64,000 nucleotides of DNA from Starkeya sp. ORNL1 (GTDB taxonomy: Bacteria > Pseudomonadota > Alphaproteobacteria > Rhizobiales > Xanthobacteraceae). Of the stretch, positions 36,133-59,643 are shown piece after piece (positions within the stretch are counted from its first letter, which is position 1; each line of letters starts with the position of its first letter). The notes below the pieces were generated by a model. It worked only from the letters and a program-made list of their open reading frames with translations. It was not told the origin of the DNA and made no database searches. A program made the position numbers and the translations under genes. The stretch lies in the NCBI RefSeq assembly GCF_012971745.1, contig NZ_CP048834.1, positions 3,038,001-3,102,000 on the forward strand, given 5' to 3'.

Positions 36133-36161
36133 AAACCTTGGTATCGGTGACACCTTCGTCC
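36133..36161 (+). promoter_or_regulatory. 29-bp double-palindrome element E, upstream of crotonase gene
   Basis: Site 1 is AAACCTTGGTAT, the spacer CGGTG, site 2 ACACCTTCGTCC. The element ends 66 bp before the GTG of the crotonase-family gene. It has the same 12-5-12 architecture as the elements at 46226, 47187, 53175, 57618 and 59615. Confidence 0.65.
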
Positions 36162-36227
36162 AATCGCGCCCGAGAGATAAACAACATCTAACAGGGGCTC
36201 TTCCGTGAAGCGATCCAGGAGGGTCCC

Positions 36228-37067
36228 GTGGACGGCAATGTAACCCCCGCACAGCTTCGAGTGCTTCGGCGCACGCCCGCATATTGGCGCGTCACCTTCG
36301 AAAACCCACCGCTCAATGTGATGGGGCCGCAGATGGTCCGTGAATTCACGACGCTGATCGACGCCATCGAAGCCGACGACGAACTGCGCGTCCTAGTGTT
36401 TGATAGCGCAGTCGAGGGCTTTTTCCTTAACCACTCCTACTTCAAGGCTCGGATCGCGGATATCCTGTCATTGCCGCCGGGACCAACGGGCTTGCCGCCG
36501 TGGCCGGATTTCCTCGTGCGCCTGACCCGGGCTCCGGTTGCTTCGATCGCCCTGATCCGCGGACGCGCTACTGGCAACGGCAGCGAGATCACGCTGGCAT
36601 GTGACATGGCGTTCGCCAGCCTGGAAAAGGCCATCATCTCGCAGTGGGAAGTCGGTGTGGGCATGGTTGCCGGCGGCGGCCCAATGGCCCGACTGCCGCA
36701 ACTCATAGGGCGGAATCGCGCAATGGAGGTGCTGCTCACCTCGGAGGACATCAGCGCCGATCAGGCCGAAGCCTACGGTTATATCAATCGGGCCCTGCCC
36801 GACGCCCGACTGGATGACTACGTTGACGCGATCGCGAACCGGATCGCCAAGTTCGACAAGTGGGCGCTCGCCCAGACCAAGCGCCTGGTCAACACCAGCC
36901 TGCCACCGGACGTGGAACTTGGAGCCGGCTGGGAGGCGTGCGTTGCTTCTCTTGGCCGCCCGGCGGCGCAGGACGGAATCAAGGCCCTTACCGACAGAGG
37001 CTTCCAAACGCCCGGTGATGTCGAGAACCGACTTGCCTTCCATCTCGGCGAACTTCCGCAACGTTAG
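36228..37067 (+). CDS. Enoyl-CoA hydratase/isomerase (crotonase) family protein
   Basis: This 279-residue crotonase-fold protein starts at GTG 36228, with GGAGGG 5 bp upstream. The oxyanion-hole segments are recognisable: residues around LVFDSAVEGFFLNH and RGRATGNGSEITLACDMAFAS. The usual catalytic glutamate positions are not obviously conserved, so its acyl-CoA reaction is uncertain. It is followed at 41 bp by a GlcG/HbpS-family gene and preceded by 29-bp element E, placing the pair in the putative local stress regulon. Confidence 0.82.
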   Translation: MDGNVTPAQLRVLRRTPAYWRVTFENPPLNVMGPQMVREFTTLIDAIEADDELRVLVFDSAVEGFFLNHSYFKARIADILSLPPGPTGLPPWPDFLVRLTRAPVASIALIRGRATGNGSEITLACDMAFASLEKAIISQWEVGVGMVAGGGPMARLPQLIGRNRAMEVLLTSEDISADQAEAYGYINRALPDARLDDYVDAIANRIAKFDKWALAQTKRLVNTSLPPDVELGAGWEACVASLGRPAAQDGIKALTDRGFQTPGDVENRLAFHLGELPQR

Positions 37068-37108
37068 TCGCCGACCCCCTCGGCGCCCCCCAAGCTATAG
37101 GAGACAGC

Positions 37109-37630
37109 ATGAAGACGTTAATTGTAGCGGTCGCTCTCTATGGCGTCACGGCGTTCGGCCCGCCGGCCCTGTCTGAACCGCAGCGGGCGAGCGCCTATCA
37201 GTATGTGCTCCCCCTGGACCTCGCCGTTGAGGCGGCTACGGAAGCGGTGAGTGTATGCGGCCTCCAGGGCTATCGGGTCACAGCGACGGTCGTTGACATG
37301 GATGGCATCCCGAAGGTCGTGCTCCGCGGCGATGGCGCCACAGTCCACACGCGCGAATCGAGTTTTGAGAAAGCGTTCACGGTCGTCACGCTCGGCCCGG
37401 AATTCAACTTCGACACATCCGCCGCGCTCTTCGAGCTCGTCAAGACCAATCCATACGCGCCGCGCCTGGCGCAGGTCCACCACGTTATGGCACTCCCCGG
37501 CGCGGTCGCCTTTCACGCGGCCGGCGCGATCGTCGCCGCGTTGGGGGTCGGCGGCGCGCCGGGTGGCGACAAAGACGAGGTTTGCGCGAGGGCAGGCGTA
37601 TCGAGGGTCGAGGACCGCCTGCCCCATTGA
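37109..37630 (+). CDS. GlcG/HbpS-family (DUF336) exported protein
   Basis: This 173-residue protein has a signal peptide (about residues 1-22, ending ALS) and a GlcG/HbpS domain: LPLDLAVEAATEAVSVCG, VVDMDGIPKVVLRGDGA and the ending DEVCARAG are typical. Characterised relatives bind haem and can sense redox stress (HbpS) or act with dehydrogenases. ATAGGAGACAGC precedes ATG 37109. It is probably co-transcribed with the crotonase gene. Its ligand is not known. Confidence 0.8.
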   Translation: MKTLIVAVALYGVTAFGPPALSEPQRASAYQYVLPLDLAVEAATEAVSVCGLQGYRVTATVVDMDGIPKVVLRGDGATVHTRESSFEKAFTVVTLGPEFNFDTSAALFELVKTNPYAPRLAQVHHVMALPGAVAFHAAGAIVAALGVGGAPGGDKDEVCARAGVSRVEDRLPH

Positions 37631-38186
37631 TGCATCGCCCTATCCGACTTGAGTCGGTCCAATAAGCACTCCGACCCTTATGGCCAGACCGCCTTTACTT
37701 TGGTGAAGGGTTCGAGTGGCAGCCCTTCCTTCTCTGCGCGGACTCGCCACGCCGTCGACGTCCGATTGGTCGCGTGTGACGTCGGGCGTTCATGTTGTCA
37801 CGCGATGGAAGTAGGAACCGCGCATTTGCCGGACGAGTCTTTGGCGTGATCAAGATATCGAATGTTGGCCCTACAATCCGATCAACGGCTCGGCGATGCC
37901 CTGAATCTGTCAGGCAAATCGAGATTTGTTGGGAGCGGCGACGCGTGAGCCAGCTTCGCTGAATGGTGCGTCACGCCCCGGGTGCGTCACGCCCCAGGAG
38001 CGGCTCGCCGAAGATTAGGGAGACAACACGAAAACCAGAACGAGCCTGCACTGGCATCCCAAGTCCCTCGCGGCCTTACCTTCAATCGGGCGAGCGTCCT
38101 TCGAGGAGCAGTGCCTGACGCTTAGCCTCGAGCGCCACGCAAGCCTGTAGCACCCAAAAGCCAAACAGGTTGGAAGCGGCTGGCGC
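37631..38186. other. Non-coding stretch with a tandem 15-bp repeat
   Basis: This stretch of about 560 bp holds no credible gene. GGTGCGTCACGCCCC occurs twice in tandem (37965-37979 and 37981-37995), one base apart. The copy number of two and the position far from any start give no hint of function. The promoter of the response-regulator gene lies just to the right. Confidence 0.45.
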
Positions 38187-38198
38187 ATACGTTGGTAT
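38187..38198. promoter_or_regulatory. Single 12-bp palindrome G, upstream of the response-regulator gene
   Basis: ATACGTTGGTAT is one full half of the double element found at six other places. It lies 59 bp before the ATG of the FixJ-type regulator, a good position for autoregulation. No second half is present at the 5-bp spacing. Confidence 0.5.
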
Positions 38199-38257
38199 AA
38201 GCCGCAGCGGGCCTCCGGCGGTGCTACCGTGGCCGATCAATGTGAGGGCCATGCCAA

Positions 38258-38881
38258 ATGCCGATAGAGACCGGCGAACGGCCGATCGTTCATGTTGTAG
38301 ACGACGACGCCTCAATGCGTGGCGCGCTTGAGAGTCTGTTTGATTCTGTGGAACTTTGCGCTCGCACCTATGGAACAGCTCAGGATTTCCTGAACAGCGG
38401 CTATATTTGTCGTCCCGGATGCATTGTCATTGACGTGCTCCTCCCCGACATGAACGGTCTCGAATTTCAGGTCAAGCTAACTCAGATTGGCATTCGTCTT
38501 CCGGTTGTTGTCATGACAGGGCATGGCGACATCCCAATGTCGGTTTCAGCCATGAAGCTCGGAGCCGTGGATTTCCTGCCCAAACCTTTCCATGACCAAG
38601 ACATGCTGTGCGCGGTCATGGCTGCAATCGATCGCGATCGCCACGAGCTCGAGCTTGAGGGCAATCTTTCGGAGTTGCAAAAGCGGTTCGCAACGCTCTC
38701 GTGCCGGGAACAGCAGGTCATGTCGCTGGTAACAAAAGGAAGGCTCAATAAGCAGGCAGCCTGGGAACTCGGAATTAGCGAGATCACGGTTAAGGTCCAT
38801 CGAGGCGGCGCCATGAGAAAGATGGAAGCGCGGACCTTGCCTGAACTAGTCAGAATGGCTGATTTGATCGCTCGTCACTGA
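38258..38881 (+). CDS. FixJ/TodT-type response regulator (receiver + LuxR HTH)
   Basis: This 207-residue two-component output protein has a receiver domain (about residues 10-120; acidic pocket VVDDDAS, phospho-acceptor Asp59 in VIDVLLP, Lys in LPKPF) and a LuxR/GerE helix-turn-helix (about 144-205, LNKQAAWELGISEITVKVHRG). GerE-domain proteins bind short inverted repeats as dimers, matching the 12-bp palindromes in this region. A copy lies upstream of its own start. It is next to a single-domain regulator and a MASE4 histidine kinase, likely partners. Confidence 0.92.
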   Translation: MPIETGERPIVHVVDDDASMRGALESLFDSVELCARTYGTAQDFLNSGYICRPGCIVIDVLLPDMNGLEFQVKLTQIGIRLPVVVMTGHGDIPMSVSAMKLGAVDFLPKPFHDQDMLCAVMAAIDRDRHELELEGNLSELQKRFATLSCREQQVMSLVTKGRLNKQAAWELGISEITVKVHRGGAMRKMEARTLPELVRMADLIARH

Positions 38882-38978: not shown

Positions 38979-39347
38979 GTGCCGAGAATTCATTCATTAA
39001 TAGTTGTCGATGACGATGTGTCTTTTCGCAATGCACTTGTCGCGTTGCTTGATTCTATGGATTATGACGCACAAGGGTTCGCGTCGGCTGAGGCCTTCCT
39101 TGCTGCGCGCGCTGACATATCGTGCGACTGCGTGATCACCGACGTTCACATGCCGGGGATGAACGGCTTTGACCTTCAGCGGCTGCTCTTGAGCTGCAAC
39201 TCCAAAGTACCAATGATAATGATCACTGCCCGCGCCGAACCGGGGCTTGAGGCGCAAGCCTTGGCGAGCGGAGCCACCTGCCTGCTCAAGAAGCCCTTCG
39301 AATCCGGGGCCTTGATAGCTTGCATTGAAGCCGCGCTAAAGCCGTAG
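38979..39347 (+). CDS. Single-domain response regulator
   Basis: This 122-residue receiver has no output domain; the acidic pocket is VVDDDV, the phospho-acceptor Asp55 is in VITDVHMPGMNG and the conserved lysine in LLKKPFES. It starts at GTG 38979, with AAGGA 8 bp upstream. Such proteins serve as phosphorelay intermediates or phosphate sinks. It lies between the FixJ-type regulator and the MASE4 kinase on the same strand. Confidence 0.88.
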   Translation: MPRIHSLIVVDDDVSFRNALVALLDSMDYDAQGFASAEAFLAARADISCDCVITDVHMPGMNGFDLQRLLLSCNSKVPMIMITARAEPGLEAQALASGATCLLKKPFESGALIACIEAALKP

Positions 39348-39541: not shown

Positions 39542-41149
39542 ATGTATGCGAACAGTCCGCGCACTCTACCAGGCGACAATGCCCTGGTCCTCACAGGAGC
39601 TCCGCCAAGCCGGGCGCAGAAGCTGGTCGCGCTGGGCGTCGTGCCCACGATGTTGGCACTCGCGTTCTGTGTCGCCCGACCATTCGCAACCGTGCAACTG
39701 CGCCCGATCGAGGCCTTCGTGCCGTTCTACGTAACGACAATTTTTGTGACAGACGTCGTTACCGCCGTCATCCTGTTCTCGCAATTTTCAATTCTGCGCA
39801 CGCGCGGCCTATTGATTATTGCGAACGGATACGTATTCGCAGCGCTGGTCCTAATTCCGTATGCCTTATCGTTTCCCGGGCTATTCGAGTCAGGCACAGT
39901 CTTAGTTGGCGGCCTGCAAAGCACGGCTTGGATCTACATCCTCAGGCATTGCGGCCTTGCCGCGTATATGAGCGCATTTGCGCTCTCGAACAGTGATGCC
40001 AAAAATGCCACCGTGCGCAGTGGCGTGCGCAAGGCCATTTTTCTAAGTATAAGTGCAACGATCGTAATCGTCCTTGCTGTCTCCGCCTTGTGCCTTTGGG
40101 GTCAATTTTTACTGCCTACGGCCACGGCCGACAATATACGCTTCGGTTCAAGCTGGTTTTACTACGCCGGGGCGCCGACGGCGTCATTTTATGGACTTGC
40201 TATGATGCTTCTCTGGCGGCAGCGACGCACCGTACTGGGCCTGTGGCTAATTGTTGTGGCCTTTGTCCACCTCGCCGGAATCCCGCTCAGCTTCTTCCCA
40301 TCGTCGAGCCGTTTCAGCGTGGGATGGTATACCGTCGTGATGACCAACCTAACGGCGAATAGCCTGGTTCTCATTATTCTCCTCGTCCAGATTTCGACGC
40401 TCTACACCCACGTCTTGCTGGCGGTTCGTGCGCAGCAACGCGAGCGAGAGGCGCGCCTGGTCACCGGTGACGCCGTGGCCGCCATGATCGCGCACGAAGT
40501 GAAACAACCACTTGCGGCCATGATTACGCGCGCCGAGGCGAGCCTCCGAAGGTTGGAGCGCTCCGCGCCAGAGCTCGACAAGGCGAAGGATGACATCAAA
40601 CAGATCACCGCCGATGGATATCGAGCAGCAGATATCATCGACAGCATCCGCGCGAATTTCAAGAAAGACCAGAGGATGCGGGCAGCCTTAGACGTCCACA
40701 ACCTGATCGCAGACACGACGGTCCTGATTCGCGACGAACTGCAAAAGCAGCGGATCGCGCTTAAGATTGAGCTCAACTCCAATCGGTTGGATGTTTCCGG
40801 CGACAGAACCCAGCTACAACATGTGCTCTTGAATTTGGTCTCGAACGCGGCGGAATCGATGGCAGCCGCCCGTGGAACTCGGGTCCTTACAGTGAGGACA
40901 GAGCTCCGCGACAATAACGAAGTCGTGGTATCGGTCGCTGACACAGGAACCGGCATCAGCCCACAAAACATCGAGCGAATCTTCAATCCGCTCTTCACAA
41001 CAAAAACTACTGGTATGGGCATGGGTCTCCCGATCTGCCGCTCCATCATAGAAGCGCACGGCGGACGCATCTGGGTTGCGCCGAACACCCCTCAAGGCGC
41101 CGTGTTCAACTTCGCGCTGTCGCTCGATGCGACGGCCGCTGGCGTTTAG
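39542..41149 (+). CDS. MASE4-domain sensor histidine kinase
   Basis: This 535-residue membrane kinase has an N-terminal MASE4-type sensor (about seven transmembrane segments, residues 28-290; a phrase such as TDVVTAVILFSQFSILRTR is characteristic), a dimerisation/phospho-acceptor helix with His318 (IAHEVKQPLAAM) and a HATPase domain (N-box NLVSNAAES, G-boxes DTGTGI and GMGMGL). HEV-QPL kinases usually pair with FixJ-type regulators, as here. It probably senses a membrane-associated or lipophilic signal. The 195 bp upstream hold no gene. Confidence 0.9.
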   Translation: MYANSPRTLPGDNALVLTGAPPSRAQKLVALGVVPTMLALAFCVARPFATVQLRPIEAFVPFYVTTIFVTDVVTAVILFSQFSILRTRGLLIIANGYVFAALVLIPYALSFPGLFESGTVLVGGLQSTAWIYILRHCGLAAYMSAFALSNSDAKNATVRSGVRKAIFLSISATIVIVLAVSALCLWGQFLLPTATADNIRFGSSWFYYAGAPTASFYGLAMMLLWRQRRTVLGLWLIVVAFVHLAGIPLSFFPSSSRFSVGWYTVVMTNLTANSLVLIILLVQISTLYTHVLLAVRAQQREREARLVTGDAVAAMIAHEVKQPLAAMITRAEASLRRLERSAPELDKAKDDIKQITADGYRAADIIDSIRANFKKDQRMRAALDVHNLIADTTVLIRDELQKQRIALKIELNSNRLDVSGDRTQLQHVLLNLVSNAAESMAAARGTRVLTVRTELRDNNEVVVSVADTGTGISPQNIERIFNPLFTTKTTGMGMGLPICRSIIEAHGGRIWVAPNTPQGAVFNFALSLDATAAGV

Positions 41150-42536: not shown

Positions 42537-44033
42537 TCACGTGGCCAAGCGTGGATTGCGCAAAAGCAGCACGAGTGGGCTCACGATCAGCATCGCGATC
42601 ATCATTAGCTCGAACTGGTCGATGATCCCGACAAATGCTGCCTGGTGAGTAACCAAATGATTCAGTGTCGCGAGGGCAGGCCCGGTGATCTCCCCGGTAG
42701 GGTGAGCGGCTGCACGGAACGGCGTAAGGTTCTTTGCGAGCGCCAGGTGCATCGCCTGGGTTGTGTCGTAAAAGAATATCTGGACCAACGCGATGCCGAT
42801 CGTGCTGCCGTAAAGGCGGGAGAGATTGAAGAGCATTGTGCCATCTGCGCGGAACGCCGGATCGAGCGTAGCGAAAGCCGTATTCGTGAGCGCAGGCAAC
42901 AAGATGCCTAAGCCCGCTCCCTGGAACACGCCAGCGACGATGACGGGCCGCCAGTCCATCGCCGGTGAATAGCCGAGCATTCGCCAATTCGCGTAGATCA
43001 CGAGAACCAGCCCGACGGCCACAAGCAGCCGCTTGTCGATTCGCGCTGGAATGCGGACCGTCAGTATCAGCGCGCCCACGAGCGCGATGCTGCGCGGAAT
43101 TGCCATATAGCCTGTGGTGTCAGCCGGGTAGCCAAGTAGCTCGTCAAGCATCGGCGACGTCAATGCCATTGTCGGCAGCAGCACAAGGCCAACTGCAAAG
43201 TACATGATCGTAGAAATAATGAAATTTCGATCTTTGAACAAGGCTTTATCGAGATAATGGACCTTTGCGGTCAGGACATGCACGAAATAGAGATAGAAAC
43301 CGAGTGCCGAAGCAGTCGCCTCTGCCCATATTTCGGCTGAGTTGAACCACTCCATACGTTCACCACGGTCAAGCAGCAGCTGCAGACCAATCAAGCCTAG
43401 CGAGAACGCTGCCAGGCCGAAGAAGTCGAAGGGCAGTGTTTGCTCGACCCGCTTCTCCCGAAGCGTGAGCGCCACTGTGAAAGAAATTAGCCCCGCAATC
43501 GGTAGACTGACATAAAAGATCAAGCGCCAATCGTGATACTCACAGAGCCAGCCGCCGATGCTTGGGCCGCTCACGATGCCCAGCACGGAAATCACTGTCC
43601 ACACCAAGCTTATGCCGGCCCGTCGCACAGGCGGCGCTATGTCGAGCAGGATCGCCAAGGATAGCGGAGCTAGGATGCCGCTCGCGCCGCCTTGGACGAA
43701 GCGGGCGGCGATGAACTGCAGCGACGTGTCCGCACGCGTGGCAAGCACAAGGCCAAGAGCGAAAACGACGATCGAGACCTGATAGACGGCCTTTCGCCCA
43801 TAGCGGCTCGCGAGCCAATGTGCCAACGGCATGGTGACGATGCTCGCCGCGAGGTATGAGGAAAATACCCAACCGGCCTCGTCGTCGGCCATCGAAAGGG
43901 TACCTTGGATATGAAGCAAGGCCGCATTTGGCAGTGAGACATTGACCGCTTGAATATAAGTCGCTGCTAGTGCCGCAACTGTAAGGGCGCGGCGGCCGTC
44001 GGCTGCAGCGTTCGATTCCATCAGGACACTCAT
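42537..44033 (-). CDS. DHA2-family MFS efflux transporter (EmrB-like)
   Basis: This 498-residue 14-helix drug:H+ antiporter has the MFS motif A variant LASRYGRKAVY near residue 80 and the motif C region GIVSGPSIGGWL near 155. It works with the adjacent HlyD-type adaptor to expel toxic compounds across both membranes. ATG 44033 overlaps the stop of the adaptor gene (ATGA), which argues against an upstream in-frame ATG at 44078. It is divergently controlled with the TetR gene. Confidence 0.9.
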   Translation of the reverse strand: MSVLMESNAAADGRRALTVAALAATYIQAVNVSLPNAALLHIQGTLSMADDEAGWVFSSYLAASIVTMPLAHWLASRYGRKAVYQVSIVVFALGLVLATRADTSLQFIAARFVQGGASGILAPLSLAILLDIAPPVRRAGISLVWTVISVLGIVSGPSIGGWLCEYHDWRLIFYVSLPIAGLISFTVALTLREKRVEQTLPFDFFGLAAFSLGLIGLQLLLDRGERMEWFNSAEIWAEATASALGFYLYFVHVLTAKVHYLDKALFKDRNFIISTIMYFAVGLVLLPTMALTSPMLDELLGYPADTTGYMAIPRSIALVGALILTVRIPARIDKRLLVAVGLVLVIYANWRMLGYSPAMDWRPVIVAGVFQGAGLGILLPALTNTAFATLDPAFRADGTMLFNLSRLYGSTIGIALVQIFFYDTTQAMHLALAKNLTPFRAAAHPTGEITGPALATLNHLVTHQAAFVGIIDQFELMMIAMLIVSPLVLLLRNPRLAT

Positions 44034-45259
44034 TTGGCCGCCTCCACCGCGAGGACAGCCTGGAAGGGATGGCGCCACGTGCGCCGATAGCCCGTATCCA
44101 CCCTCACGTTGGCACTGACGCCGGAGAACAGCGGTAGGCTCGGATCGACCTCATCGAGCTCAAGGCGGACCGGCAGACGCTGGACGACCTTAACCCAATT
44201 ACCCGTCGCGTTCTCGGGCGGGAGGACCGCAAAATCTGATCCGGTTCCCGGGCTCATACTGACGATGTGAGCCCTAAAGGTATGGTCCGGATAGGCGTCA
44301 ACGTCGATTGCTGCCTCCTGCCCCGGACGCATATGTGTCAGGCCCGTCTCCCGGAAATTCGCCTCGATCCAGATGTGTCGGCTAGACATCAGCGAAAACA
44401 CGGCTGCACCGGGACTAACAAAGTCGCCGATTTGAAGGTCATCGACTCTTGTCACGATGCCGTCATCGGGCGCCGTCACCGCAGCATAAGAGAGGTTGAG
44501 CCTGGCCCGATCTAGCTCGGCCCTCGCTGCGCGAACCGACGGATGGCGATCTACCTCGATATTCGGATCGCCATTCAACGCAACCACGGTGCTGGCGATC
44601 TGCTGTTCGATCGATGCGATGTGCTGTCGGGCGACCTTCAGGTCGGTCTCGGCTCTCTCATAGGCAGCGCGTGGTGTCCAATCAGAAGCAACAAGCGACT
44701 TCTTGCGGCCGAACTCGCGTTCAGCGAATTCCGCGGAATCCTTTGCCGATTGGAGCTCCGTCAGTTGCCGACGATAGGTCGCCCTAAGCCCGCCAACCTC
44801 GAGACGCGCGCTGCCCAGCCGCGCCTCCGCCTGATCGACTGAGATCTGATACGGCTCCGGATCGATACGGAACAGGAGTTGGCCTCGTCGGACGCGCTGA
44901 TTGTCCACGATGGCAATTTCGATTGCTTGGCCAGCGACCCTCGCGTTGATCGTTTCCTTTGCAACCCGGACAAAGGCATCATCCGTCGACACATAGGGCT
45001 CCTCACTCAAATAGAATCCCGCACCGACAGAAGCCGCAATTAGTGGAAGGATGATTAGCAAGGGACGGCGCAGGCGCTCCCGTAGGGTCCTACTCGGTAT
45101 CAAAGCGCCTTGGCCCACTCCGGGACCATCTATTCCCTCCCTCGACTGCACACTGATCTGTGAGAGCCGCGCCACATTCTCCGCGTCCCCAGCGATTTCG
45201 GAAATCGTCAAACAGCCGTGTGGCGCAGGCGAGGAGTGCATGGTGGGTCTCATAGGCAT
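44030..45259 (-). CDS. HlyD/EmrA-family membrane fusion protein
   Basis: This 409-residue periplasmic adaptor has one N-terminal transmembrane helix (about residues 63-81, PLLIILPLIAASVGAGFYL), a lipoyl-like domain split by a long coiled-coil hairpin (about 140-220) and a beta-barrel with the family phrase VTAPDDGIVTRV. It connects the MFS pump to an outer-membrane channel. Start ATG 45259 is tentative: ATGs at 45253 and 45241 are also in frame, none has a good ribosome binding site, and 45259 lies next to a TetR operator candidate. Confidence 0.85.
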   Translation of the reverse strand: MPMRPTMHSSPAPHGCLTISEIAGDAENVARLSQISVQSREGIDGPGVGQGALIPSRTLRERLRRPLLIILPLIAASVGAGFYLSEEPYVSTDDAFVRVAKETINARVAGQAIEIAIVDNQRVRRGQLLFRIDPEPYQISVDQAEARLGSARLEVGGLRATYRRQLTELQSAKDSAEFAEREFGRKKSLVASDWTPRAAYERAETDLKVARQHIASIEQQIASTVVALNGDPNIEVDRHPSVRAARAELDRARLNLSYAAVTAPDDGIVTRVDDLQIGDFVSPGAAVFSLMSSRHIWIEANFRETGLTHMRPGQEAAIDVDAYPDHTFRAHIVSMSPGTGSDFAVLPPENATGNWVKVVQRLPVRLELDEVDPSLPLFSGVSANVRVDTGYRRTWRHPFQAVLAVEAAK

Positions 45260-45262
45260 TGA

Positions 45263-45335
45263 ATTTTGTACTGCGTCGCATAAATATGGACGACTGAAAT
45301 CGCCGTCAAGGTTTTTGTGCGAAATGGTACAAAAT
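45263..45335. promoter_or_regulatory. Inverted operator pair between efflux operon and TetR gene
   Basis: ATTTTGTAC (45263-45271) and its exact reverse complement GTACAAAAT (45327-45335) face each other across the 64-bp divergent start region. One lies at the adaptor start and the other at the TetR start. This symmetric arrangement is that expected of a TetR repressor blocking both promoters. Confidence 0.55.
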
Positions 45336-45947: not shown

Positions 45948-46225
45948 CCGGCGGACGATCGATCGGAATGGATCAGGCGACGTATGTCTCGCCGCCCGTG
46001 CTCCTCGTTTGTGCTGGTCCGGTTTAACCGTCGGGCTCCCCGGTCAATGGTCAAAAAATACCGATCATCCAAGATCACCGAATCCTTTCCGTTGATGTTA
46101 CTTGTGACGAGAATCCTGCGCCGGACGGGTAATGACCAAGTGTAGGACATGACGTTTCTCCTCTTGGCGCGTCATTGCCTAGCTAGTCGTTTCCATGTAC
46201 GGCCATGACAGCTATTGAGGCGACT
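45948..46225 (-). pseudogene. Cupin-like gene remnant (N-terminal part)
   Basis: An ATG at 46150 with a near-ideal ribosome binding site (AAGAGGAG) starts a frame whose first 40 residues resemble the N-terminus of small cupin proteins (RRILVTSNINGKDSVILDD). The similarity fades after about 46050, and the frame then runs antisense through the TetR gene, so only the gene head seems to survive. A 29-bp element lies 75 bp upstream. The cupin call rests on a short segment and may be wrong. Confidence 0.3.
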
Positions 46226-46254
46226 GTACATTGGTGTCGCCGGTACCTTCGTAT
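46226..46254 (+). promoter_or_regulatory. 29-bp double-palindrome element A
   Basis: Site 1 is GTACATTGGTGT, the spacer CGCCG, site 2 GTACCTTCGTAT. It lies 75 bp upstream of the cupin-like remnant start (ATG 46150, - strand). The region to its right, 46255-46567, has no recognisable gene, so the remnant is the only plausible target. Confidence 0.65.
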
Positions 46255-47186: not shown

Positions 47187-47215
47187 ATACGATGGTCTCA
47201 CCGATACCAACGTGC
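47187..47215 (-). promoter_or_regulatory. 29-bp double-palindrome element H, upstream of DJ-1/PfpI gene
   Basis: On the - strand, site 1 is GCACGTTGGTAT, the spacer CGGTG and site 2 AGACCATCGTAT. The element ends 70 bp before the ATG of the DJ-1/PfpI gene. The TTGCAC flank before site 1 also occurs at elements B and C. Confidence 0.65.
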
Positions 47216-47285
47216 AACTGCTTTTGCTCGGAACCTGTGGCGGAATGACAGCCGCCGGTTCCGCCTCATACACTGGAGAAGGACG

Positions 47286-47996
47286 ATGAGGGTTCTGATG
47301 GTATTGACGTCGCACGACAAGCTCGGTGATACCGGCCGCAAGACCGGCTTCTGGCTCGAGGAAGGGGCCGCCCCGTATTACGTGTTCCGTGATGCCGGCG
47401 TCGCCTTGACACTCGCCTCCCCCAAGGGGGGTGAACCGCCGATTGATCCGAAGAGCGACCTGCCCGAGAACCAGACGCCGGCTATGGCGCGGTTCAAGCA
47501 GGATCTCGCAGCACAGAGGGACTTTGCCAACACCCAAAAGCTCGAAAATATGCGTTCGGAGGATTTTGACGCGATCTTCTATTCTGGTGGCCACGGGCCA
47601 ATGTGGGATCTGGTAGACAGTCTGGTCTCCATTGCACTGATCGAATCCTTCTACAACGCTGGCAAGCCAGTGGCCGCCGTCTGCCATGCTCCGGCGGTGC
47701 TTCATCGCGTTACATTCCGGGGCGAGCCGATCGTGCGAGGTAAACGCGTCACGGGCTTCGCCAATAGCGAAGAAGAAGAAGTTCAACTCACCCATGTCGT
47801 CCCATTTCTTGTCGAGGATGAGCTCAAGCGCCTCGGTGGACTCTTTGAAAAGGCGCCGAATTGGCAGAGTTTCGTCATTACCGATGGGCGACTGATCACG
47901 GGACAGAACCCAGCTTCCTCGACCGATGGCGCCGAGGCCCTGCTACGGCTGGTCTCCCAGTTGAAGACTTCGGAGCACACCTCAAACGCCGCGTGA
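47286..47996 (+). CDS. DJ-1/PfpI-family protein (Hsp31-like)
   Basis: This 236-residue protein is of the class-I glutamine-amidotransferase-like DJ-1/PfpI superfamily. The nucleophilic cysteine elbow is AAVCHAPAVL (about residue 137), and the GGHGPMWDL segment supplies the oxyanion region. Relatives act as glyoxalase III/methylglyoxalases or chaperones against reactive-carbonyl damage. GGAGAAGG precedes ATG 47286. Element H lies upstream, so it is a likely member of the stress regulon. Confidence 0.87.
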   Translation: MRVLMVLTSHDKLGDTGRKTGFWLEEGAAPYYVFRDAGVALTLASPKGGEPPIDPKSDLPENQTPAMARFKQDLAAQRDFANTQKLENMRSEDFDAIFYSGGHGPMWDLVDSLVSIALIESFYNAGKPVAAVCHAPAVLHRVTFRGEPIVRGKRVTGFANSEEEEVQLTHVVPFLVEDELKRLGGLFEKAPNWQSFVITDGRLITGQNPASSTDGAEALLRLVSQLKTSEHTSNAA

Positions 47997-50776: not shown

Positions 50777-51760
50777 TCAGGGTGCGGGCGACGGCGAAGT
50801 CAGCTTCGCGAGGATGAGTGAAAAATACTCGCGCGCATCTGTCCACTCGCCAACCGGCGTCCAACCACCGGCCCGCAGCAACAAGCGCGCCTCGCGCACG
50901 CCGTACTTCAGGCTGTTCTCCGTGTGTATCGTCTCTCCCAGCGACATCGCAAAGATTTCGCCATCGATGATAAATTCCACATCACGCGTTGCTTCAAGGT
51001 GCATCTCAATCCGCGACTCGTCCTCGTTCCAGCGAACCCGATGCCTGAAGGCGTCAACCGGGATGGAACCCAGTAGTTCGCGATTAATCCTCCGGAGAAG
51101 GTTGAGGTTAAAATCAGCGGTGACTCCCTCCGCATCATCGTAGGCGGCCAGAAGGGTGCTGCTGTCTTTCGTTCGGTCTATGCCAATCAGCAGCATAGAA
51201 TCCGAGCCGAGTATCCCGGCCATGCCTCGCAAGAGGTCGACCGCCGCGGGTACGAGCATGTTGCCGATCGTTGACCCCGGAAAGAACCCGAGCCTTGGCA
51301 GGCCGTCAATGGAGCCAGGGAGTTTCAGCGGTCTGGTAAAGTCCCCCTCGACCTCATGTACGGGAAGCGTTGGGAACGCAGAACGAATAAGCGCCGCCGA
51401 TGCATGTAGAAACTCGCCAGATATATCGATCGGCACGTATGCGGATGGCTCGATGGCTGAGAGCAGCATTGGCGTCTTTGCCGATGAACCCGAACCAAAT
51501 TCGACCACCGCTCGGCGCGGCCCAGTCAGCGTCGCGATAGCGTTTACCGCGTTGGCCAGAATTTCACGCTCTGTACGCGTCGGATAGTACTCCGGCAGTG
51601 CAGTGATCCGCTCGAAAATTCTGGATCCGCGAAGATCGTAGAACCATCGAGCAGGGATCGCCCGCCGCCGCTGACTGAGACCAGCAATAACGTCTTCGCG
51701 AAACGCGGGGTCAGGCAGGAAGGGCGCATTGTGGCGTGTCTCGATCGACCGAACAAGCAT
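50777..51760 (-). CDS. egtD: L-histidine N-alpha-methyltransferase EgtD
   Basis: This 327-residue SAM-dependent enzyme trimethylates histidine to hercynine, the first step of ergothioneine biosynthesis. The SAM-binding motif VVEFGSGSSAKT (about residues 69-80) and the family phrases PARWFYDLRGSRIFERIT and PEYYPTRTE are clear. Its length matches the family. ATG 51760 shares a base with the egtB stop, so the two are coupled. Confidence 0.94.
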   Translation of the reverse strand: MLVRSIETRHNAPFLPDPAFREDVIAGLSQRRRAIPARWFYDLRGSRIFERITALPEYYPTRTEREILANAVNAIATLTGPRRAVVEFGSGSSAKTPMLLSAIEPSAYVPIDISGEFLHASAALIRSAFPTLPVHEVEGDFTRPLKLPGSIDGLPRLGFFPGSTIGNMLVPAAVDLLRGMAGILGSDSMLLIGIDRTKDSSTLLAAYDDAEGVTADFNLNLLRRINRELLGSIPVDAFRHRVRWNEDESRIEMHLEATRDVEFIIDGEIFAMSLGETIHTENSLKYGVREARLLLRAGGWTPVGEWTDAREYFSLILAKLTSPSPAP

Positions 51761-53046
51761 CAGATGTCCCTCGCAAGACGGACGCCAGTGAACTGCCAGC
51801 GCTGATGTGGGTAGAAGAAATTGCGATAGCTGGCGCGGACGTGACCGCGTGGAGTTGCACAACTTCCGCCCTTCAGAACGAATTGGCCGGACATGAACTT
51901 TCCATTGTATTCGCCAACGGCTCCGGGTGCCGCGCGAAAGCCTGGGTAGGCGAGATACGCCGAGGCGGTCCATTCCCAGACGTCACCGAACATCTGGGCG
52001 ACACCATCGGCGTGACTGGCCGGCCATGCGCGGACCGCTTCTGCGCGATCGAGTAAATTGCCCTCGGTGTCGTTGAGATTCTCGGCCGCGCTTTCCCATT
52101 CGGCTTCCGTCGGCAGGCGCGCCCCTGCCCAGCGAGCGAAAGCGTCGGCCTCATAGAAGCTGATGTGTTGAACCGGAGCGCTCTCGTCCAAGGCCGTTAC
52201 GCCGTCCAGTCCAAATTGACCCCACGAGCCACCTTCGTCTCGCCGCCAATAGAGAGGCGCGTCGATTGCATTTTGTCTAACCCAGGCCCAGCCGTCCGCC
52301 AGCCAATTGCCTACTGTGACGTACCCTCCATCTTCAATGAAGGCCTGCCATTCTCCGTTGGTGACCACACGATCAGCTATGGCGTGAGGCGTGAGCCAGG
52401 TCTTGTGACGCGGGCATTCGCAGTCAAAAGCGAAACCGCGACCGGCATGCCCGACGTTCACCGGCCCTTCACGCCCTTCGATCCACCTGACCGGCCGGGA
52501 AACATCGAGGGGCCTCGGCCCGCGTGATGGCCAGACAGCCGGCGCAAGCGGGTTCTGGGCGAAAAGATTGAGAAGATCAGTGAGAAGGAGTTCCTGATGC
52601 TGTTCCTCATGGTGGCAGCCCAAAGTCAAGAGTTCGAGGGCTTCAAGAGGCAGCAGGCCGATTGCTGATCGAACCGCATCATCGACGTGGAGGCGATAGG
52701 CGCGTGTCTCGTCAAGCGACGGACGAGTTATAAGTCCGCGAGACGCTCGACCAATCCGGGCCCCTTTCGCCTCATAGTAGCTGTTGTACAGGAAAGGAAA
52801 GCGAGCATCGAAGAGGCGGTATCCAGGAACGAATTCGGCCAACACAAACGTCTCGAAGAACCACGTCGTATGCGCCAAATGCCATTTTACCGGGGACGCA
52901 TCCGGCATCGATTGCACAGACGCATCGGCGTCGGAAAGATTCTCCGCGAGCGCGAGACTTAAGGCGCGTACGTGGCTGAATCGCCCTGCCGACGACTCCG
53001 TGGCGGACTCCGCCCATGTATCGATCGTCTTAACGGTCGCTGCCAT
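51760..53046 (-). CDS. egtB: Ergothioneine biosynthesis sulfoxide synthase EgtB
   Basis: This 428-residue non-haem iron enzyme joins a thiol substrate (cysteine or gamma-glutamylcysteine) to hercynine with oxygen. The DinB-like N-terminal half has the metal-binding histidines in WHLAHTTWFF and HHEEQHQEL (HX3HXE). The C-terminal half is the sulfatase-modifying-factor-like fold (GDVWEWTASAY, and LKGGSC). ATG 53046 is used, with GAGGG upstream. It is the first gene of the egtB-egtD-MOSC operon and element B lies 128 bp upstream. Confidence 0.93.
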   Translation of the reverse strand: MAATVKTIDTWAESATESSAGRFSHVRALSLALAENLSDADASVQSMPDASPVKWHLAHTTWFFETFVLAEFVPGYRLFDARFPFLYNSYYEAKGARIGRASRGLITRPSLDETRAYRLHVDDAVRSAIGLLPLEALELLTLGCHHEEQHQELLLTDLLNLFAQNPLAPAVWPSRGPRPLDVSRPVRWIEGREGPVNVGHAGRGFAFDCECPRHKTWLTPHAIADRVVTNGEWQAFIEDGGYVTVGNWLADGWAWVRQNAIDAPLYWRRDEGGSWGQFGLDGVTALDESAPVQHISFYEADAFARWAGARLPTEAEWESAAENLNDTEGNLLDRAEAVRAWPASHADGVAQMFGDVWEWTASAYLAYPGFRAAPGAVGEYNGKFMSGQFVLKGGSCATPRGHVRASYRNFFYPHQRWQFTGVRLARDI

Positions 53047-53693
53047 CGAGAGCCCTCTACATCTATGCAATAAAACCGACTTCCTCGGGAGACCCGTGGC
53101 GTAGCTGACCGGTTAACCCCGTGTCCTCGTGCCCGCCGGGGATATATTCGCTCAAGAGCCGTAAAGCGACGATTGCACTTAGGTATGGCCAGTACCTTCG
53201 TATAGGTCCGCGACCCAAGTCGAGCGGGGTGTTCCTTTCGCGGCCTCACTTCCAACATTTGGAAGTTCAGGCAACCAAGACATCGGCACGTCGAGTTGTC
53301 ACGTCGTCGGCGCAATGACGTTGCTCACACGGGACTGCACGCCCTTCGCCACCTGGGCTAGGCAACCGGGCGGCGACAGCGGCGCAATCCCATGCCCATC
53401 CGACTTTCAGGCCTCGCAGGTCCGCCAGCCAGGGCCCTGGCTAGCCTTTCGGCTCCCTGTTTTGGTACGCGATAGCTTTGTGTTCCGCCGCCTCTCGTGA
53501 GCGTGATTGCGAATTGCCCACCATGGGGCACTGAATCCTCATAGTGGAAAGGTGCTGAACACCATCATCTGCCTATTCTGGCGCTGCCCGACGACGACAT
53601 CTCTAATAAGTGGAGACTGCACCCAATTCGCCGATTTTTACTTTCGGGAGTCGCACCGGTCTCTGACTCTGGCGTAATGGCGCACTGCACAAT
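53047..53693. other. Non-coding stretch between egtB and mug
   Basis: The 647 bp contain no recognised gene. They hold element B (53175-53203) and, to its right, a perfect 8-bp-arm palindrome (ACTTCCAA, CAT, TTGGAAGT; 53248-53266) that could be another operator or a small hairpin. The mug gene ends just to the right, so the rest is probably its 3' region. Confidence 0.5.
53175..53203 (+). promoter_or_regulatory. 29-bp double-palindrome element B, upstream of egtB
   Basis: Site 1 is GCACTTAGGTAT, the spacer GGCCA, site 2 GTACCTTCGTAT. It lies 128 bp before the egtB start on the opposite strand. The CGATTGCAC sequence at its left edge is shared with element C. Confidence 0.65.
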
Positions 53694-55549: not shown

Positions 55550-56179
55550 CTACTTCGGCAGTTCCCGGCCGAGCTGCTCGGCCACCATGTATTGCGCGTA
55601 CCAGTCCGGCCAGGTCTCGTCGTGCCGGCCGCCGGTGCGCTTTTCATGCTCGCCATGCGCGGTTGCGGCGCGCCGCAGCGCTGCCGCGAGGTCGGCTCCG
55701 GAGCCGAAGCTGGTCGCCTTCGAGTCGATCCGCCCCGGAAACCGGGTGGTGATCTCCTGGAGCAGCCAGCCATTGCCGTCGGGATCGTTGAACGTCGCGA
55801 ACGAGACGTAGCTGCGTCCCTCCGGATCCCGGCCATTGATGGCCGGCTGTCCCGGTCCGGCACGGTGGAACACGTCGCTCACATCGGCGCCGTGGGCGAC
55901 GAGGTCGGCGCGCGCCGCCACGATGTCCGACACGATGAGATAGAGCCCCTGCGCCGAGCCCGGCGCGGCCGCGGTGACGCCCTTGCCGAAGTGGATCGAG
56001 CCCGGCGAGCCGGGAGGCGTGAACTGCACCACCCGGAACGTGTCGCCGACCGGGAAGTCGGCATCGAGCCGCCAGCCGAGGCCTGCGTAGAACTGCTTGG
56101 AGCGGTCGACGTCCGCGACCGGAATGACGACGACCTCGAGCTTCAGGTCGACGGGACGCGCACTTGCGGTGTCTGACAT
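55550..56179 (-). CDS. VOC superfamily (glyoxalase/bleomycin-resistance-type) protein
   Basis: This 209-residue protein has a VOC domain (about residues 12-125; VVVIPVADVDRSKQFYAGLGW and TFNDPDGNGWLLQEI) and a charged C-terminal tail. VOC members include glyoxalase I, dioxygenases and drug-binding proteins. ATG 56179 is favoured, since GGAAACGGCC lies just upstream; ATG 56197 adds six residues. It lies 52 bp after the epoxide hydrolase gene, consistent with electrophile detoxification. Confidence 0.85.
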   Translation of the reverse strand: MSDTASARPVDLKLEVVVIPVADVDRSKQFYAGLGWRLDADFPVGDTFRVVQFTPPGSPGSIHFGKGVTAAAPGSAQGLYLIVSDIVAARADLVAHGADVSDVFHRAGPGQPAINGRDPEGRSYVSFATFNDPDGNGWLLQEITTRFPGRIDSKATSFGSGADLAAALRRAATAHGEHEKRTGGRHDETWPDWYAQYMVAEQLGRELPK

Positions 56180-56231
56180 GGCCGTTTCCTTTTCCATGCG
56201 GGTGGGCCTGATCCTGCCCGCCCCGTCCGGT

Positions 56232-57533
56232 TCAGATTTGCTGGCGCAGCGGACGGAACGACGTCCTGAGCTCGGCGCTGAAGGCCGCGGGCTGTTCCCA
56301 GGCGGCGAAGTGGCCGCCCTTGGGCAGCCGATTGTAATGGATGAGCTTCGGATACGCCTTCTGCGCCCAGCTCTGCGGCGCCTGGTAGATCTCGTCCGGG
56401 AAGGCGCTCACGGCGACCGGGATCTTGATGCCGCGGGGGTCGAAGAAGCCTCCCGTCGGAAAGTGCGCATTGTCCCAATAGAGGCGCGCCGAGGAGATCG
56501 GGGTGTTGGTCAGCCAGTACAGGGTGACATTGTCGAGGATGTCGTCGCGGGTCAGGCCCTCGGACTTGCCGTCGAACACGCCGGCGATCAGCTCGTAGCT
56601 GCGGATGTCGTGGTCGAGCATCCAGGCCGCCAGTCCGACCGGCGAGTCCACGATGCCGTAGAGCGTCTGCGGGCGGTTGTTCATCTCGATCGCGTAGCCC
56701 AGCCCGTTCTTGTAGAAATCGTCGAGCTGATCCCAGGCGCGCTTTTCGTCCGGCGACAGGCCGGCCGGCGGCGGGCCGCCGGCGGCGAGCGCCTTCGAGA
56801 TGTCGGCAGGAACGGTGGCCGCCATGTTGGTGTGGATGCCGAGCAATCCCGGCGGTTCCTGCACCGCCATCAGTTCGGTGACCGCGTTGCCCCAGTCGCC
56901 GCCCTGCGCGACATATTTGGTGTAGCCGAGGCGTTGCATCAGCGTCGCCCAGGCTTTGGCGATGCGCACGGGGGTCCAGCCGGGCGCCGTCGGCTTGCCG
57001 GAGAAGCCGTAACCGGGCAGCGAGGGGATCACCACGTCGAACGCGTCCGCTGCGCTCCCGCCATGCGCCGTGGGATCGGTGAGTGGCGCGATGATCTTGA
57101 TCTGCTCGATGATCGAGCCGGGCCAGCCATGGGTGATGATCACCGGCAGCGCCTTGTCGTGCTTCGAGCGGACATGGATGAAGTGGATGTCGAGCCCGTC
57201 GATCTCGGTGACGAAGTTCGGCAGCGCCTTCAACTGCGCCTCGCATTTGCTCCAGTCATAGTCGCTCGCCCAATATTGCGCGAGCTTGCGGGCGGTGGCG
57301 AGTTGCACGCCCTGCGTGGTGTCCGTCACCGTCTCCTTGTCCGGCCAGCGGGTTGCGGCCACGCGCCGGCGCAGATCGGCGACGTCCTCCGGCGGGAAGC
57401 TGATGGTGAACGGGCGAATCTGGTCGCCCGCCGCGGCGGCGAGCGAGGGCGACGGGAACAGGCTTGCAGCACCGGTAGCGGCGGCGGCGACAAGCACATC
57501 ACGTCGCGTGAGGTACGAGTGTGGGTCCGACAT
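56232..57533 (-). CDS. Epoxide hydrolase-family protein with Tat-type leader
   Basis: This 433-residue alpha/beta hydrolase of the microsomal epoxide hydrolase (EHN) family opens epoxides with water. The EHN domain (FTISFPPEDVADLRRRVAAT), the oxyanion loop HGWPGS, the nucleophile in GGDWGN (about residue 200) and the general-base histidine in KGGHFAAWEQP are all present. The leader contains RRDVLVAAAATGAASLF, a twin-arginine signal, so it is probably exported folded. It is the first gene of the five-gene operon and elements C and F lie upstream. Confidence 0.9.
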   Translation of the reverse strand: MSDPHSYLTRRDVLVAAAATGAASLFPSPSLAAAAGDQIRPFTISFPPEDVADLRRRVAATRWPDKETVTDTTQGVQLATARKLAQYWASDYDWSKCEAQLKALPNFVTEIDGLDIHFIHVRSKHDKALPVIITHGWPGSIIEQIKIIAPLTDPTAHGGSAADAFDVVIPSLPGYGFSGKPTAPGWTPVRIAKAWATLMQRLGYTKYVAQGGDWGNAVTELMAVQEPPGLLGIHTNMAATVPADISKALAAGGPPPAGLSPDEKRAWDQLDDFYKNGLGYAIEMNNRPQTLYGIVDSPVGLAAWMLDHDIRSYELIAGVFDGKSEGLTRDDILDNVTLYWLTNTPISSARLYWDNAHFPTGGFFDPRGIKIPVAVSAFPDEIYQAPQSWAQKAYPKLIHYNRLPKGGHFAAWEQPAAFSAELRTSFRPLRQQI

Positions 57534-58097
57534 GGCAGTCTGTCCTCCGTGGCCGCGGCCTCGGCCGGATAAGGCGGCCGCACGTCACGCTCGGCCATCG
57601 ATCGCCGAATGGCGATTGCACGATGGTATCGCCAATACCTTGATATCGGCTGGCGACCCTCCGCATGGGCGCCAAGACGGCTCACCAAAGCAAAAAACTT
57701 CAAACCGATACCAAGGTACTATCGGCCACCAGACCGCGGTTGGCGCATGGTTCCCACGCGGTGGTGAAGCGCTCTCGTTGGAAGAGCTAACGATGCGCTC
57801 TCGAACCGAATTTCGACCTTCGATCGGGAGGCTATTGTTGAGACGAAGCGACTGGTCGACATCACGAGCCTAGCCCCGGGTTCCGAAAATCGCACCCGGG
57901 TGGCGTGGCTTTGCTTGGCGCACTGAACCGACCGGCTGCCCGGAAGCGAATAAATAAGTCGATGACTGTGGGTTTCACCAGCGGGGCAAGGTCGAGACGA
58001 TGTGGGATATTACGTTGGACGGATCTGCCTTTGAGTTCATGAAAATAGAGGTGACCGACGTCAGATTCAGCAATCTGGATTGTGGGGCCGGATTGCC
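57534..58097. promoter_or_regulatory. Divergent region with elements C and F
   Basis: The 564 bp between the epoxide hydrolase and flavoprotein genes have no gene. Element C (57618-57646) and the single palindrome F (57708-57719, ATACCAAGGTAC) lie in its left part, 84 and 174 bp before the epoxide hydrolase start. The right part, before the flavoprotein gene, shows no clear motif. Confidence 0.55.
57618..57646 (+). promoter_or_regulatory. 29-bp double-palindrome element C, upstream of epoxide hydrolase operon
   Basis: Site 1 is GCACGATGGTAT, the spacer CGCCA, site 2 ATACCTTGATAT. It lies 84 bp before the epoxide hydrolase ATG on the opposite strand. Confidence 0.65.
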
Positions 58098-59474
58098 ATG
58101 AGCCTTACCTTCGACGCGATCATCATCGGTGCCGGGCAGGCCGGGCCATCGCTTGCCGGCCGCCTTGCCGACGCCGGCATGAGCGTCGCCATCGTCGAGC
58201 GCAAGTTCTTTGGCGGCACCTGTGTCAACACCGGCTGCAAGCCGACTAAGACACTGGTGGCAAGCGCCTATGCGGCCCGCATGGCCGCCCGCGCGGCGGA
58301 GTATGGCGTAGTCATCGATGGGCCGCCGCGCATCGACATGGCGCGCGTGAAGGCGCGTGCCGGCAAAGTGATCACCGACTCGCGCCAGGGGATCGAGAGC
58401 TGGCTGGGCGGCATGGCAAATTGTGCCGTGCTGCGTGGCCATGCCCGCTTCGAGGGACCGGACAGGCTCCGGGTCGGCGACGAGATGCTCACCGCGCCGC
58501 GCATTTTCCTCAATGTCGGCGGGCGCGCCGCGGTGCCGGACATGCCCGGCGTCGACACCGTGCCGTTCCTGACCAACAGCAACATGGTCGAACTCGACCA
58601 TCTGCCGAAGCATCTCGTGGTGATCGGCGGCAGCTATATCGGGCTCGAATTCGCGCAGATGTATCGCCGCTTCGGCGCCGATGTCACAGTCGTGGAGATG
58701 AATGACCGCCTGGTCTCGCGCGAGGACGAGGACGTCTCGGCAGCGATCGCCGACATATTGGCGGCGGAAGGCGTCGGCATCCGCGTTGGTGCCAAGTGCA
58801 TCCGGCTCGCACCGCATGGCGAAGGGGTGGCGGTCGCGGTCGACTGCGTGAGCGGCGCGCCGGAGATCATGGGATCGCACGTCCTGCTGGCGGTCGGTCG
58901 CCGGCCCAATACCGACGATCTCGGCCTGGAGATCGCCGGCGTCGAGACCGATGCGCGCGGCTACATCAAGGTCGACGACCACCTCGCCACCAACGTGCCC
59001 GGCATCTGGGCGATGGGCGATTGCAACGGCCGCGGCGCCTTCACCCATACCGCCTATAACGACTTCGAGATCGTCGCTGCCAATCTGCTTGACGGGCAGG
59101 ACTGGAAGCTAAGCCAACGGGTGCCGGGCTACGCGCTCTATACCGATCCGCCGCTCGGGCGGGTCGGCATGACCGAGACGGCGGCGCGTGCCACCGGTCG
59201 CCCCTTGCTCATCGGCAAGCGACTGATGACGCGGGTCGGCCGCGCGGTGGAGAAAGGCGAGACGCAGGGCTTCATGAAAGTCGCCGTCGACGCCGAGACC
59301 AAGCGGATCCTCGGCGCCGCGATCCTCGGCACCGGCGGCGATGAGGCGATCCACGGCATACTGGACATGATGAATGCCGGCGCACCGTACACGACGCTGC
59401 AGCGCGCCGTGCCGATCCACCCGACCGTCTCCGAACTCATCCCCACCATGCTGGGTGAGATGAAGCCGGGCTAG
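58098..59474 (+). CDS. Flavoprotein pyridine nucleotide-disulfide oxidoreductase
   Basis: This 458-residue class I flavoprotein is related to mercuric and glutathione-type reductases. The FAD-binding GAGQAGPSLAG (about residues 11-21), the redox-active disulfide CVNTGC with KPTKTL, the NAD-binding GGSYIGLEFA and the second FAD segment WAMGDCNG are present, and the C-terminal domain carries the dimer-interface histidine in VPIHPTVSEL. Extra mercury-binding cysteines are lacking, so thiol or quinone reduction is more likely. ATG 58098 is chosen by homology. Confidence 0.9.
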   Translation: MSLTFDAIIIGAGQAGPSLAGRLADAGMSVAIVERKFFGGTCVNTGCKPTKTLVASAYAARMAARAAEYGVVIDGPPRIDMARVKARAGKVITDSRQGIESWLGGMANCAVLRGHARFEGPDRLRVGDEMLTAPRIFLNVGGRAAVPDMPGVDTVPFLTNSNMVELDHLPKHLVVIGGSYIGLEFAQMYRRFGADVTVVEMNDRLVSREDEDVSAAIADILAAEGVGIRVGAKCIRLAPHGEGVAVAVDCVSGAPEIMGSHVLLAVGRRPNTDDLGLEIAGVETDARGYIKVDDHLATNVPGIWAMGDCNGRGAFTHTAYNDFEIVAANLLDGQDWKLSQRVPGYALYTDPPLGRVGMTETAARATGRPLLIGKRLMTRVGRAVEKGETQGFMKVAVDAETKRILGAAILGTGGDEAIHGILDMMNAGAPYTTLQRAVPIHPTVSELIPTMLGEMKPG

Positions 59475-59614
59475 GGGTCGAACATGGTGGAAACTCGACG
59501 CGATCCACGACGCGCGATGGAGTTCGATCCTACCGTACGGCTGCTAGGCCTCGCGAGGATGGTGAACCTTGAATCGCCGGCGGAGACTCGAACCGCGAGC
59601 AATTGATCCGTTCT

Positions 59615-59643
59615 ATACCAACGTATCGCAAATACCTTCGTTC
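59615..59643 (+). promoter_or_regulatory. 29-bp double-palindrome element D, upstream of DUF4331 gene
   Basis: Site 1 is ATACCAACGTAT, the spacer CGCAA, site 2 ATACCTTCGTTC. It lies 106 bp before the ATG of the DUF4331 gene. The tail TTCGTTCAAT resembles the TTCGTCCAAT of element E. Confidence 0.65.

Follow-up and report, generated by a model that had tools for sequence, protein, structure and literature searches.

The closest described counterparts of the DNA element reported here are the sites of two-component systems that serve one catabolic operon, StyS/StyR (styrene genes) and TodS/TodT (toluene genes). In the available parts of the respective sources, the StyR and TodT sites read ATAAACN4GTTTAT (PMC5874301); phosphorylated StyR (StyR-P) activates from a site at about -40, and two sites are bound cooperatively by two dimers (PMC2442086); and the TdiR site, GGTGTTCGCACC, is a 12-bp palindrome upstream of -35, proposed to be a single site (PMC5874301). 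We analysed a 64,000-nucleotide stretch of the genome of Starkeya sp. ORNL1 (contig NZ_CP048834.1, positions 3,038,001 to 3,102,000), hereafter the window, which carries six copies of an element that joins two palindromes, always 17 bp apart, to a -35 box. The element, found in several groups of soil bacteria, most probably serves as the docking site of an activator under sensor control whose gene lies beside genes of a detoxification type.

As far as the partial sources go, the likeness to the StyR and TodT sites lies in the inner AC-N4-GT and in the place just upstream of -35, whereas the outer bases differ (ATAAAC...GTTTAT against RYAC...GTRY), as do the doubled palindrome and the genes served, one operon there and many dispersed detoxification-type genes here. 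The exact consensus ATAAACN4GTTTAT was not matched by the element, whose own consensus is RYACNWWSGTRY; for this reason the element is considered to work like the StyR site without being filed as a TodT-box regulon. StyR is also the closest solved structure of the regulators encoded in the element clusters, its helix reading TVKVHRH and theirs TVKAHRG or TVKVHRG. The TdiR-type sites of anaerobic toluene genes share the 12-bp palindrome upstream of -35 but differ, in the available text, in their sequence and in being single. An oligonucleotide tested with the Thermus CsoR protein TTHA1953 contains ATACCTTGGTAT (PMC10318464); this motif was rejected as kin, since the regulator belongs to another family and the accessible part of the source gives one palindrome only, and the resemblance is taken as fortuitous. 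We regard the element as a relative in kind of NarL/FixJ-type (StyR/TodT-like) sites, with a distinct consensus and layout. A preliminary description of this DNA knew of no described consensus of exactly this form, and we likewise found none in the literature searched.

Architecture and direction of the element

Read towards the gene, the consensus of 82 distinct aligned elements is AYACCAARGTAT-CGNCG-AYACCWWSGTGCAATNGM, each palindrome having the form RYAC-N4-GTRY. The step between the two palindromes is strict: 28 pairs of 12-mers have starts 17 bp apart, and no other distance up to 80 bp is represented by more than 2 pairs. The gene-proximal palindrome continues into CAATNG, a -35-like box. 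With the -35-like hexamer at positions 32-37 and the -10 at positions 55-60, 17 bp lie between the two (counted from T32-N-G34), and it is in this register that A at 56 and T at 60, which correspond to the -11 and -7 places of a -10 box, are each found in 51 of the 82 elements (p 2.9e-15 and 2.6e-16; all P values given here are descriptive, the sequences being related). The two letters occur together in 31 elements; at other offsets the average count is 3.0 and the highest 9. In the opposite orientation they are present in only 20 and 16 elements. The elements were oriented by a model trained on 17 sites near epoxide hydrolase (EH) genes and covering positions -6 to 39, so that conservation within these limits is partly imposed by the choice of orientation; the -10 positions lie outside the orienting model. 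Some of the 82 elements are orthologous, and 72 are left after a 60% identity filter on the 40 downstream bases. Apart from the -10 letters, conservation ends near positions -2 and 38.

The direction of the element is borne out by its surroundings. All 13 pairs of elements no more than 300 bp apart point outwards to divergent genes, seven of these pairs being free of training sites, and in two loci (L158 and L168) two outward-pointing elements share one palindrome by way of the 17-bp step. Where a gene flanks the element on just one side, its direction and that of the element agree in 24 of 30 cases (p=7e-4), 34 elements with genes on both sides or neither having been set aside. Two observations weigh against the promoter model proposed below: the six one-sided elements that disagree with their assigned gene, and the presence of both -10 letters in register in only two of the six window promoters. 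The disagreement at 47187 in the window is ascribed to an error of open reading frame (ORF) assignment because the DJ-1 gene starts at 47286. Individual promoters are weak, T32 and G34 being present together in four of the six in the window. Where the preliminary description saw a 29-bp unit in mixed orientation to its gene, we thus find a directional unit of about 35 bp plus a -10 at a fixed distance, and this unit is a predicted composite promoter, with two palindromes directly upstream of -35.

The six window elements (table 1) were all found where the preliminary description had placed them, and they are real, far above chance: a 35-bp model trained without the window sites, which serves as our held-out test, gives them 37-51 bits, whereas 20 mononucleotide shuffles of the window yield nothing above 5.1. 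The same model finds no element of at least 15 bits in bases 1-36000, again in line with the earlier account, and the other window matches of at least 15 bits are weaker readings of the known sites. The two single 12-mers reported earlier are also present; they were rejected as full elements, the copy at 38187 being without the distal palindrome and the CAATNG extension. The distance of 66-128 bp to a start codon that had been claimed for every element holds for five genes (crotonase 66, DJ-1 70, EH 84, DUF4331 106 and egtB 128 bp); the element at 46226-46254 has no intact gene in the direction in which it points (stretch 45947-46568 of the window), and may be a remnant of a lost gene.

Table 1. 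Elements, related sites and genes discussed in the text. Positions are those of the window unless a locus is named.
Feature	Position	Strand	Remarks
Element 1	36133..36167	+	29 bp + CAAT/-35 extension; directed at crotonase gene
Element 1, -10 place in register	36187-36192		TCTAAC; without A56 and without T60
Element 2	46220..46254	-	Directed leftward; no intact target gene recognised
Element 2, -10 place in register	46195-46200		GTACAT
Element 3	47187..47221	+	Directed at DJ-1/PfpI gene
Element 3, -10 place in register	47241-47246		CGGAAT
Element 4	53169..53203	-	Directed at egtB
Element 4, -10 place in register	53144-53149		GAATAT; A56 and T60 present
Element 5	57612..57646	-	Directed at EH gene
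Element 5, -10 place in register	57587-57592		GAGCGT; A56 and T60 present
Element 6	59615..59649	+	Directed at DUF4331 gene
Element 6, -10 place in register	59669-59674		CACTTC
Single 12-mer palindrome	38187..38198	+	59 bp ahead of local response-regulator gene; without distal palindrome and CAATNG extension
Single 12-mer palindrome	57708..57719	+	Half element; 17 bits under proximal-half model
FixJ/StyR-type response regulator	38258..38881	+	Response_reg + GerE; candidate binder
Receiver-only response regulator	38979..39347	+	
MASE4 sensor histidine kinase	39542..41149	+	Candidate partner
Crotonase (ECH_1)	36228..37067	+	Target
DJ-1/PfpI family protein	47286..47996	+	Target
egtB-like (FGE-sulfatase + DinB_2)	51760..53046	-	Target
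egtD-like ORF (Methyltransf_33)	50777-51973		Overlaps egtB-like ORF
EH (EHN + Abhydrolase_1)	56232..57533	-	Target
Glyoxalase	55550-56197		Follows EH gene
DUF4331 protein	59750..60730	+	Target
TetR-type regulator	45324-45947		Divergent from HlyD/MFS efflux pair 42537-45412
Degenerate-receiver regulator	L011:7720-8409		
Degenerate-receiver regulator	L036:10169-10912		
Degenerate-receiver regulator	L037:18883-19719		
Degenerate-receiver regulator	L038:5764-6522		
Degenerate-receiver regulator	L035:6299-7030		
Degenerate-receiver regulator	L153:6160-6888		

Occurrence in the host and in other genomes

In the 6.29-Mb host genome (G000), a relaxed 29-bp pattern with up to two mismatches marks 11 distinct places, while the reversed pattern used as a control marks none. 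Six of these places, at 3.074-3.098 Mb, are the window elements, four form a second cluster at 5.482-5.493 Mb, and one at 5.4215 Mb is doubtful; at three mismatches noise becomes visible (32 matches against 8 in the control), and a further site of the second cluster appears at 5.4771 Mb, which the strict pattern also finds at one mismatch. A model built from the six window sites only gives the unseen site at 5.4825 Mb 40.2 bits, equal to its own members, and reaches at best 15.4 bits in nine other stretches of the host (L009, L012-L019). Four doubtful matches were not accepted as element regions, namely position 5,421,492 (15.4 bits), G259 (22.9 bits), L062 and L078.

In the scan that follows and in all later ones, the models took in sites from the host and from related genomes. 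Among 80 EH loci, the best of 570 from a search with an alignment of five epoxide hydrolases, there are 40 element places of at least 15 bits, compared with 0-7 for 20 column-shuffled models at the laxer cut-off of 12. A split model with a free spacer finds elements in 20 of the 80 loci (0-1 for 10 column shuffles), among them four deposited as Acidobacteriota with a spacer of 6 (L045, L072, L080 and L087) and one from Lysobacter with a spacer of 2 (L113), where the element does not adjoin the EH gene. In 13 of 14 further genomes the elements are grouped on one or a few contigs, with one control match in all 14; the fourteenth, that of locus L049, has one weak match.

Within the order, the strict pattern with up to one mismatch occurs in 5 of 397 genomes, one genome showing a control match. 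Within the genus the relaxed pattern is found in 19 of 30 genomes, but 7 of the 30 have control matches too, and single relaxed matches there are therefore uninformative; elements of the full type occur in five genomes (G000, G007, G010, G021 and G421). Locus L082, from a metagenome-assembled genome deposited as Xanthobacteraceae and belonging to the host's genus, is the G021 region with the same elements. Other Hyphomicrobiales, Azospirillum and Variovorax also have element clusters, as do Acidobacteriota and Lysobacter, where the spacers differ. We note that L042 was deposited as Mycobacterium sp. KBS0706, yet its elements and regulator are Pseudomonadota-like, and the name looks doubtful.

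The elements avoid gene bodies, only 7 of 62 lying in the body of an ORF, although ORF bodies make up 65% of the bases. Scans of the genome and its relatives, as proposed in the preliminary description, yield clustered matches, and the element is kept upstream of orthologous genes in other genera. What stands of the regulon proposed there is a clustered regulatory element conserved before orthologous genes; its supposedly local character, confined to one region, does not, given the second cluster in the same genome and the clusters in other orders and phyla.

A FixJ/StyR-type response regulator as candidate binder

When the ORFs of element regions and element-lacking EH loci were clustered all against all, the response-regulator family was by far the most associated with the element, the bait aside: it is present in 17 of 21 element regions and 5 of 57 element-lacking loci (p=1.8e-9, receiver-only proteins counted), the next families reaching p of about 0.001. 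This comparison left out L062, L078 and L082 and dropped controls shorter than 12 kb, which left 57. A full regulator with receiver and helix-turn-helix domains is encoded in 21 of 22 element regions (13 of the 21, together with L074, six widened EH regions and G421); matches to both the receiver and the GerE families of Pfam were obtained for the window regulator, L011, L016 and L035. The DNA was widened after the association had been seen, and a regulator was then found in all six EH regions previously without one; the fetched stretches are unequal, up to about 60 kb for widened regions and about 21 kb for controls, which favours regulator finds in the former.

Scored with the free-spacer model, the 80 EH loci fall into 12 with both element and regulator, 8 with the element only, 3 with the regulator only (L049, L088 and L106; hence 3 of 60 element-lacking loci) and 57 with neither (p=6.7e-7). 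Six of the eight element-only loci gained a regulator on widening, L082 is the G021 region, whose regulator lies in L037, and L072 has none. Four former control loci that encode a related regulator, L045, L080, L087 and L113, proved to have an element whose spacer differs. A tree of 43 regulators places 17 of the 20 from clusters in one clade of 25 rows (support 100/98), and the cluster label needs 7 changes compared with 14.7 in shuffles. Among cluster regulators the helix TVKAHRG is present in 19 of 20; of the 23 others, 6 share it, five of them from element-bearing loci or genomes. Close relatives of the regulator encoded at 5.49 Mb in the host (63-86%; next best 48%) are found in the element carriers G007, G010 and G021, and G421, the fifth element genome of the genus, has a different FixJ-type regulator in its cluster.

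Several observations weigh against assigning the element to this regulator. L130 has an element and no regulator within its 20 kb, the single miss of the 22, and at the L072 locus elements are present without a regulator; conversely, L106 has a regulator of the clade and no element was found there. In Azospirillum (G427) the regulator lies on another contig than the EH gene, beside another element, and the same apparently holds for Rhizobium tubonense (G436). The window regulator itself is outside the main clade, with TVKVHRG instead of TVKAHRG, and its 69% Bradyrhizobium relative (L049) has no element within 21 kb and only one weak strict-pattern match in its genome. Six of the 20 cluster regulators have degenerate receivers, four without the acid pair and two without the phospho-acceptor and the lysine; the window regulator is canonical, as is that of L054 (1420-2037), and the rows of L154 and L168 start too late for the acid pair to be judged.

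In view of the helix of the window regulator and its pairing with the Bradyrhizobium protein, control of the window promoters may lie with this regulator, with the one encoded at 5.49 Mb acting in trans, or with the two together. The window regulator has 9 matches in the host at E up to 1e-30. As a separate observation, a 17-mer with one palindrome precedes two paralogous kinase/FixJ-type systems of the host, at 38182-38198 of the window and at G000:C1:2361026-2361042; exact copies within the genus occur only in the host, with one-mismatch copies in two other genomes and control matches in three.

Proposed mechanism, alternatives and target genes

The element, its spacing, its direction, the -10 register and the association with regulator genes can be read directly from the DNA. 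From these we infer that the candidate regulator binds the element and that it activates rather than represses. We consider it likely that the promoter is a composite one of the sigma70 type, dependent on an activator, and that the element is the part where the activator acts, bound by two dimers of a StyR/FixJ-type response regulator, one on each RYAC-N4-GTRY palindrome. The regulator would be encoded in a cluster of the same kind. With transcription starting 7 bp after the -10, the proximal dimer would be centred near -43 and the distal one near -60, and the former would abut the weak -35 box and contact RNA polymerase. Phosphorylation by a sensor kinase would be the expected switch; in the clusters scanned for kinases, sensor kinases were seen in those of the window, L054, L055 and L114.

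The same regulator could instead act as a repressor, or as activator and repressor depending on its level of phosphorylation, as with STY1 and STY2 of StyR, where one model in the available part of the source has the promoter closed by StyR-P on two sites (PMC2442086). A repressor, too, could be expected to overlap the -35-like box, but the -35 is weak (TNGM) and a site upstream of it is the usual place of an activator, and we regard this alternative as unlikely. The idea that a small repeat, mobile or dispersed and of no regulatory role, has given rise to the elements draws on their clustered and patchy occurrence, with strict matches in so few genomes of the order; it was rejected as extremely improbable in view of the sharp limits of conservation, the avoidance of ORF bodies and the recurrence of downstream gene families.

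Other binders can be imagined. Palindromic operators are usual for TetR proteins, and the window encodes one with a TetR_N match (45324-45947). As a general regulator, however, a TetR-type repressor was rejected, the family not being among those that recur in at least four element regions, and the direction and fixed place just upstream of -35 are better suited to an activator; an operator of this kind is highly improbable. Only a little more credible, and still very unlikely, is a role as operator of the large regulator that combines Trans_reg_C with a STAND ATPase. Genes for it lie in the clusters of G000 (5.49 Mb), G007, G010, G021, G028 and G421 and in L042, but their presence shows no tie to that of the element (6 of 21 regions with it, 17 of 57 EH loci lacking it), for which reason the protein was rejected as the binder; the EH loci of Bradyrhizobium have the gene but lack the element, and no such gene was noticed in the window.

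The Trans_reg_C/STAND protein may have another part alongside the response regulator that we favour as binder. Receivers are canonical in most clusters; the six degenerate ones belong to those same six genome clusters, with such a gene close by in all six, which suggests that a STAND switch has taken the place of the kinase. Against this, a nearby ATPase of this kind also accompanies canonical receivers, those of the L042 regulator and of additional regulators in L158 and L164. We tentatively raise the possibility, which we hold to be doubtful in its full extent, of an undescribed, patchy and probably horizontally moving detoxification regulon (EH, DJ-1/PfpI, crotonase, SDR, glyoxalase and others) common to Pseudomonadota and Acidobacteriota, under one TVKAHRG subfamily of response regulators, with its input rewired through the six degenerate receivers and a STAND switch replacing the kinase. 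The element with its direction, -35 and -10 would provide a sequence-level handle on a regulon whose genes are poorly annotated (among them those for epoxide hydrolase, DJ-1/PfpI, DUF4331 and an unnamed family), with its likely regulator named and its targets predictable in any genome, and what the clusters sense, as well as a possible shift of a response regulator from a kinase to another input, would become directly testable.

Within 800 bp in the direction pointed, 58 of the 82 elements have one of 14 query proteins, and 24 have unrecognised targets. The recognised ones are EH (21), DJ-1 (9), crotonase (8), SDR (7, two families), glyoxalase (4), a family without a Pfam match (4; L036:14656-15180), DUF4331 (2), MOSC/ferredoxin reductase (2) and egtB (1), the share of EH being inflated because element regions were mostly found through this gene. 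On the opposite side 23 of the 82 elements have a query protein, in many cases the partner of a divergent pair. The theme of stress and electrophiles put forward in the preliminary description fits these predicted target families.

Two further features of the window may be mentioned. The ORF at 48986-50746 encodes a MOSC domain fused to FAD/NAD-binding and 2Fe-2S domains; its relatives in L156 and L172 are preceded by an element, and none was found before the window copy. A 50-nt repeat is present at 25491-25540 and 26680-26729, its two copies being 88% identical and containing, by eye, an internal inverted repeat.

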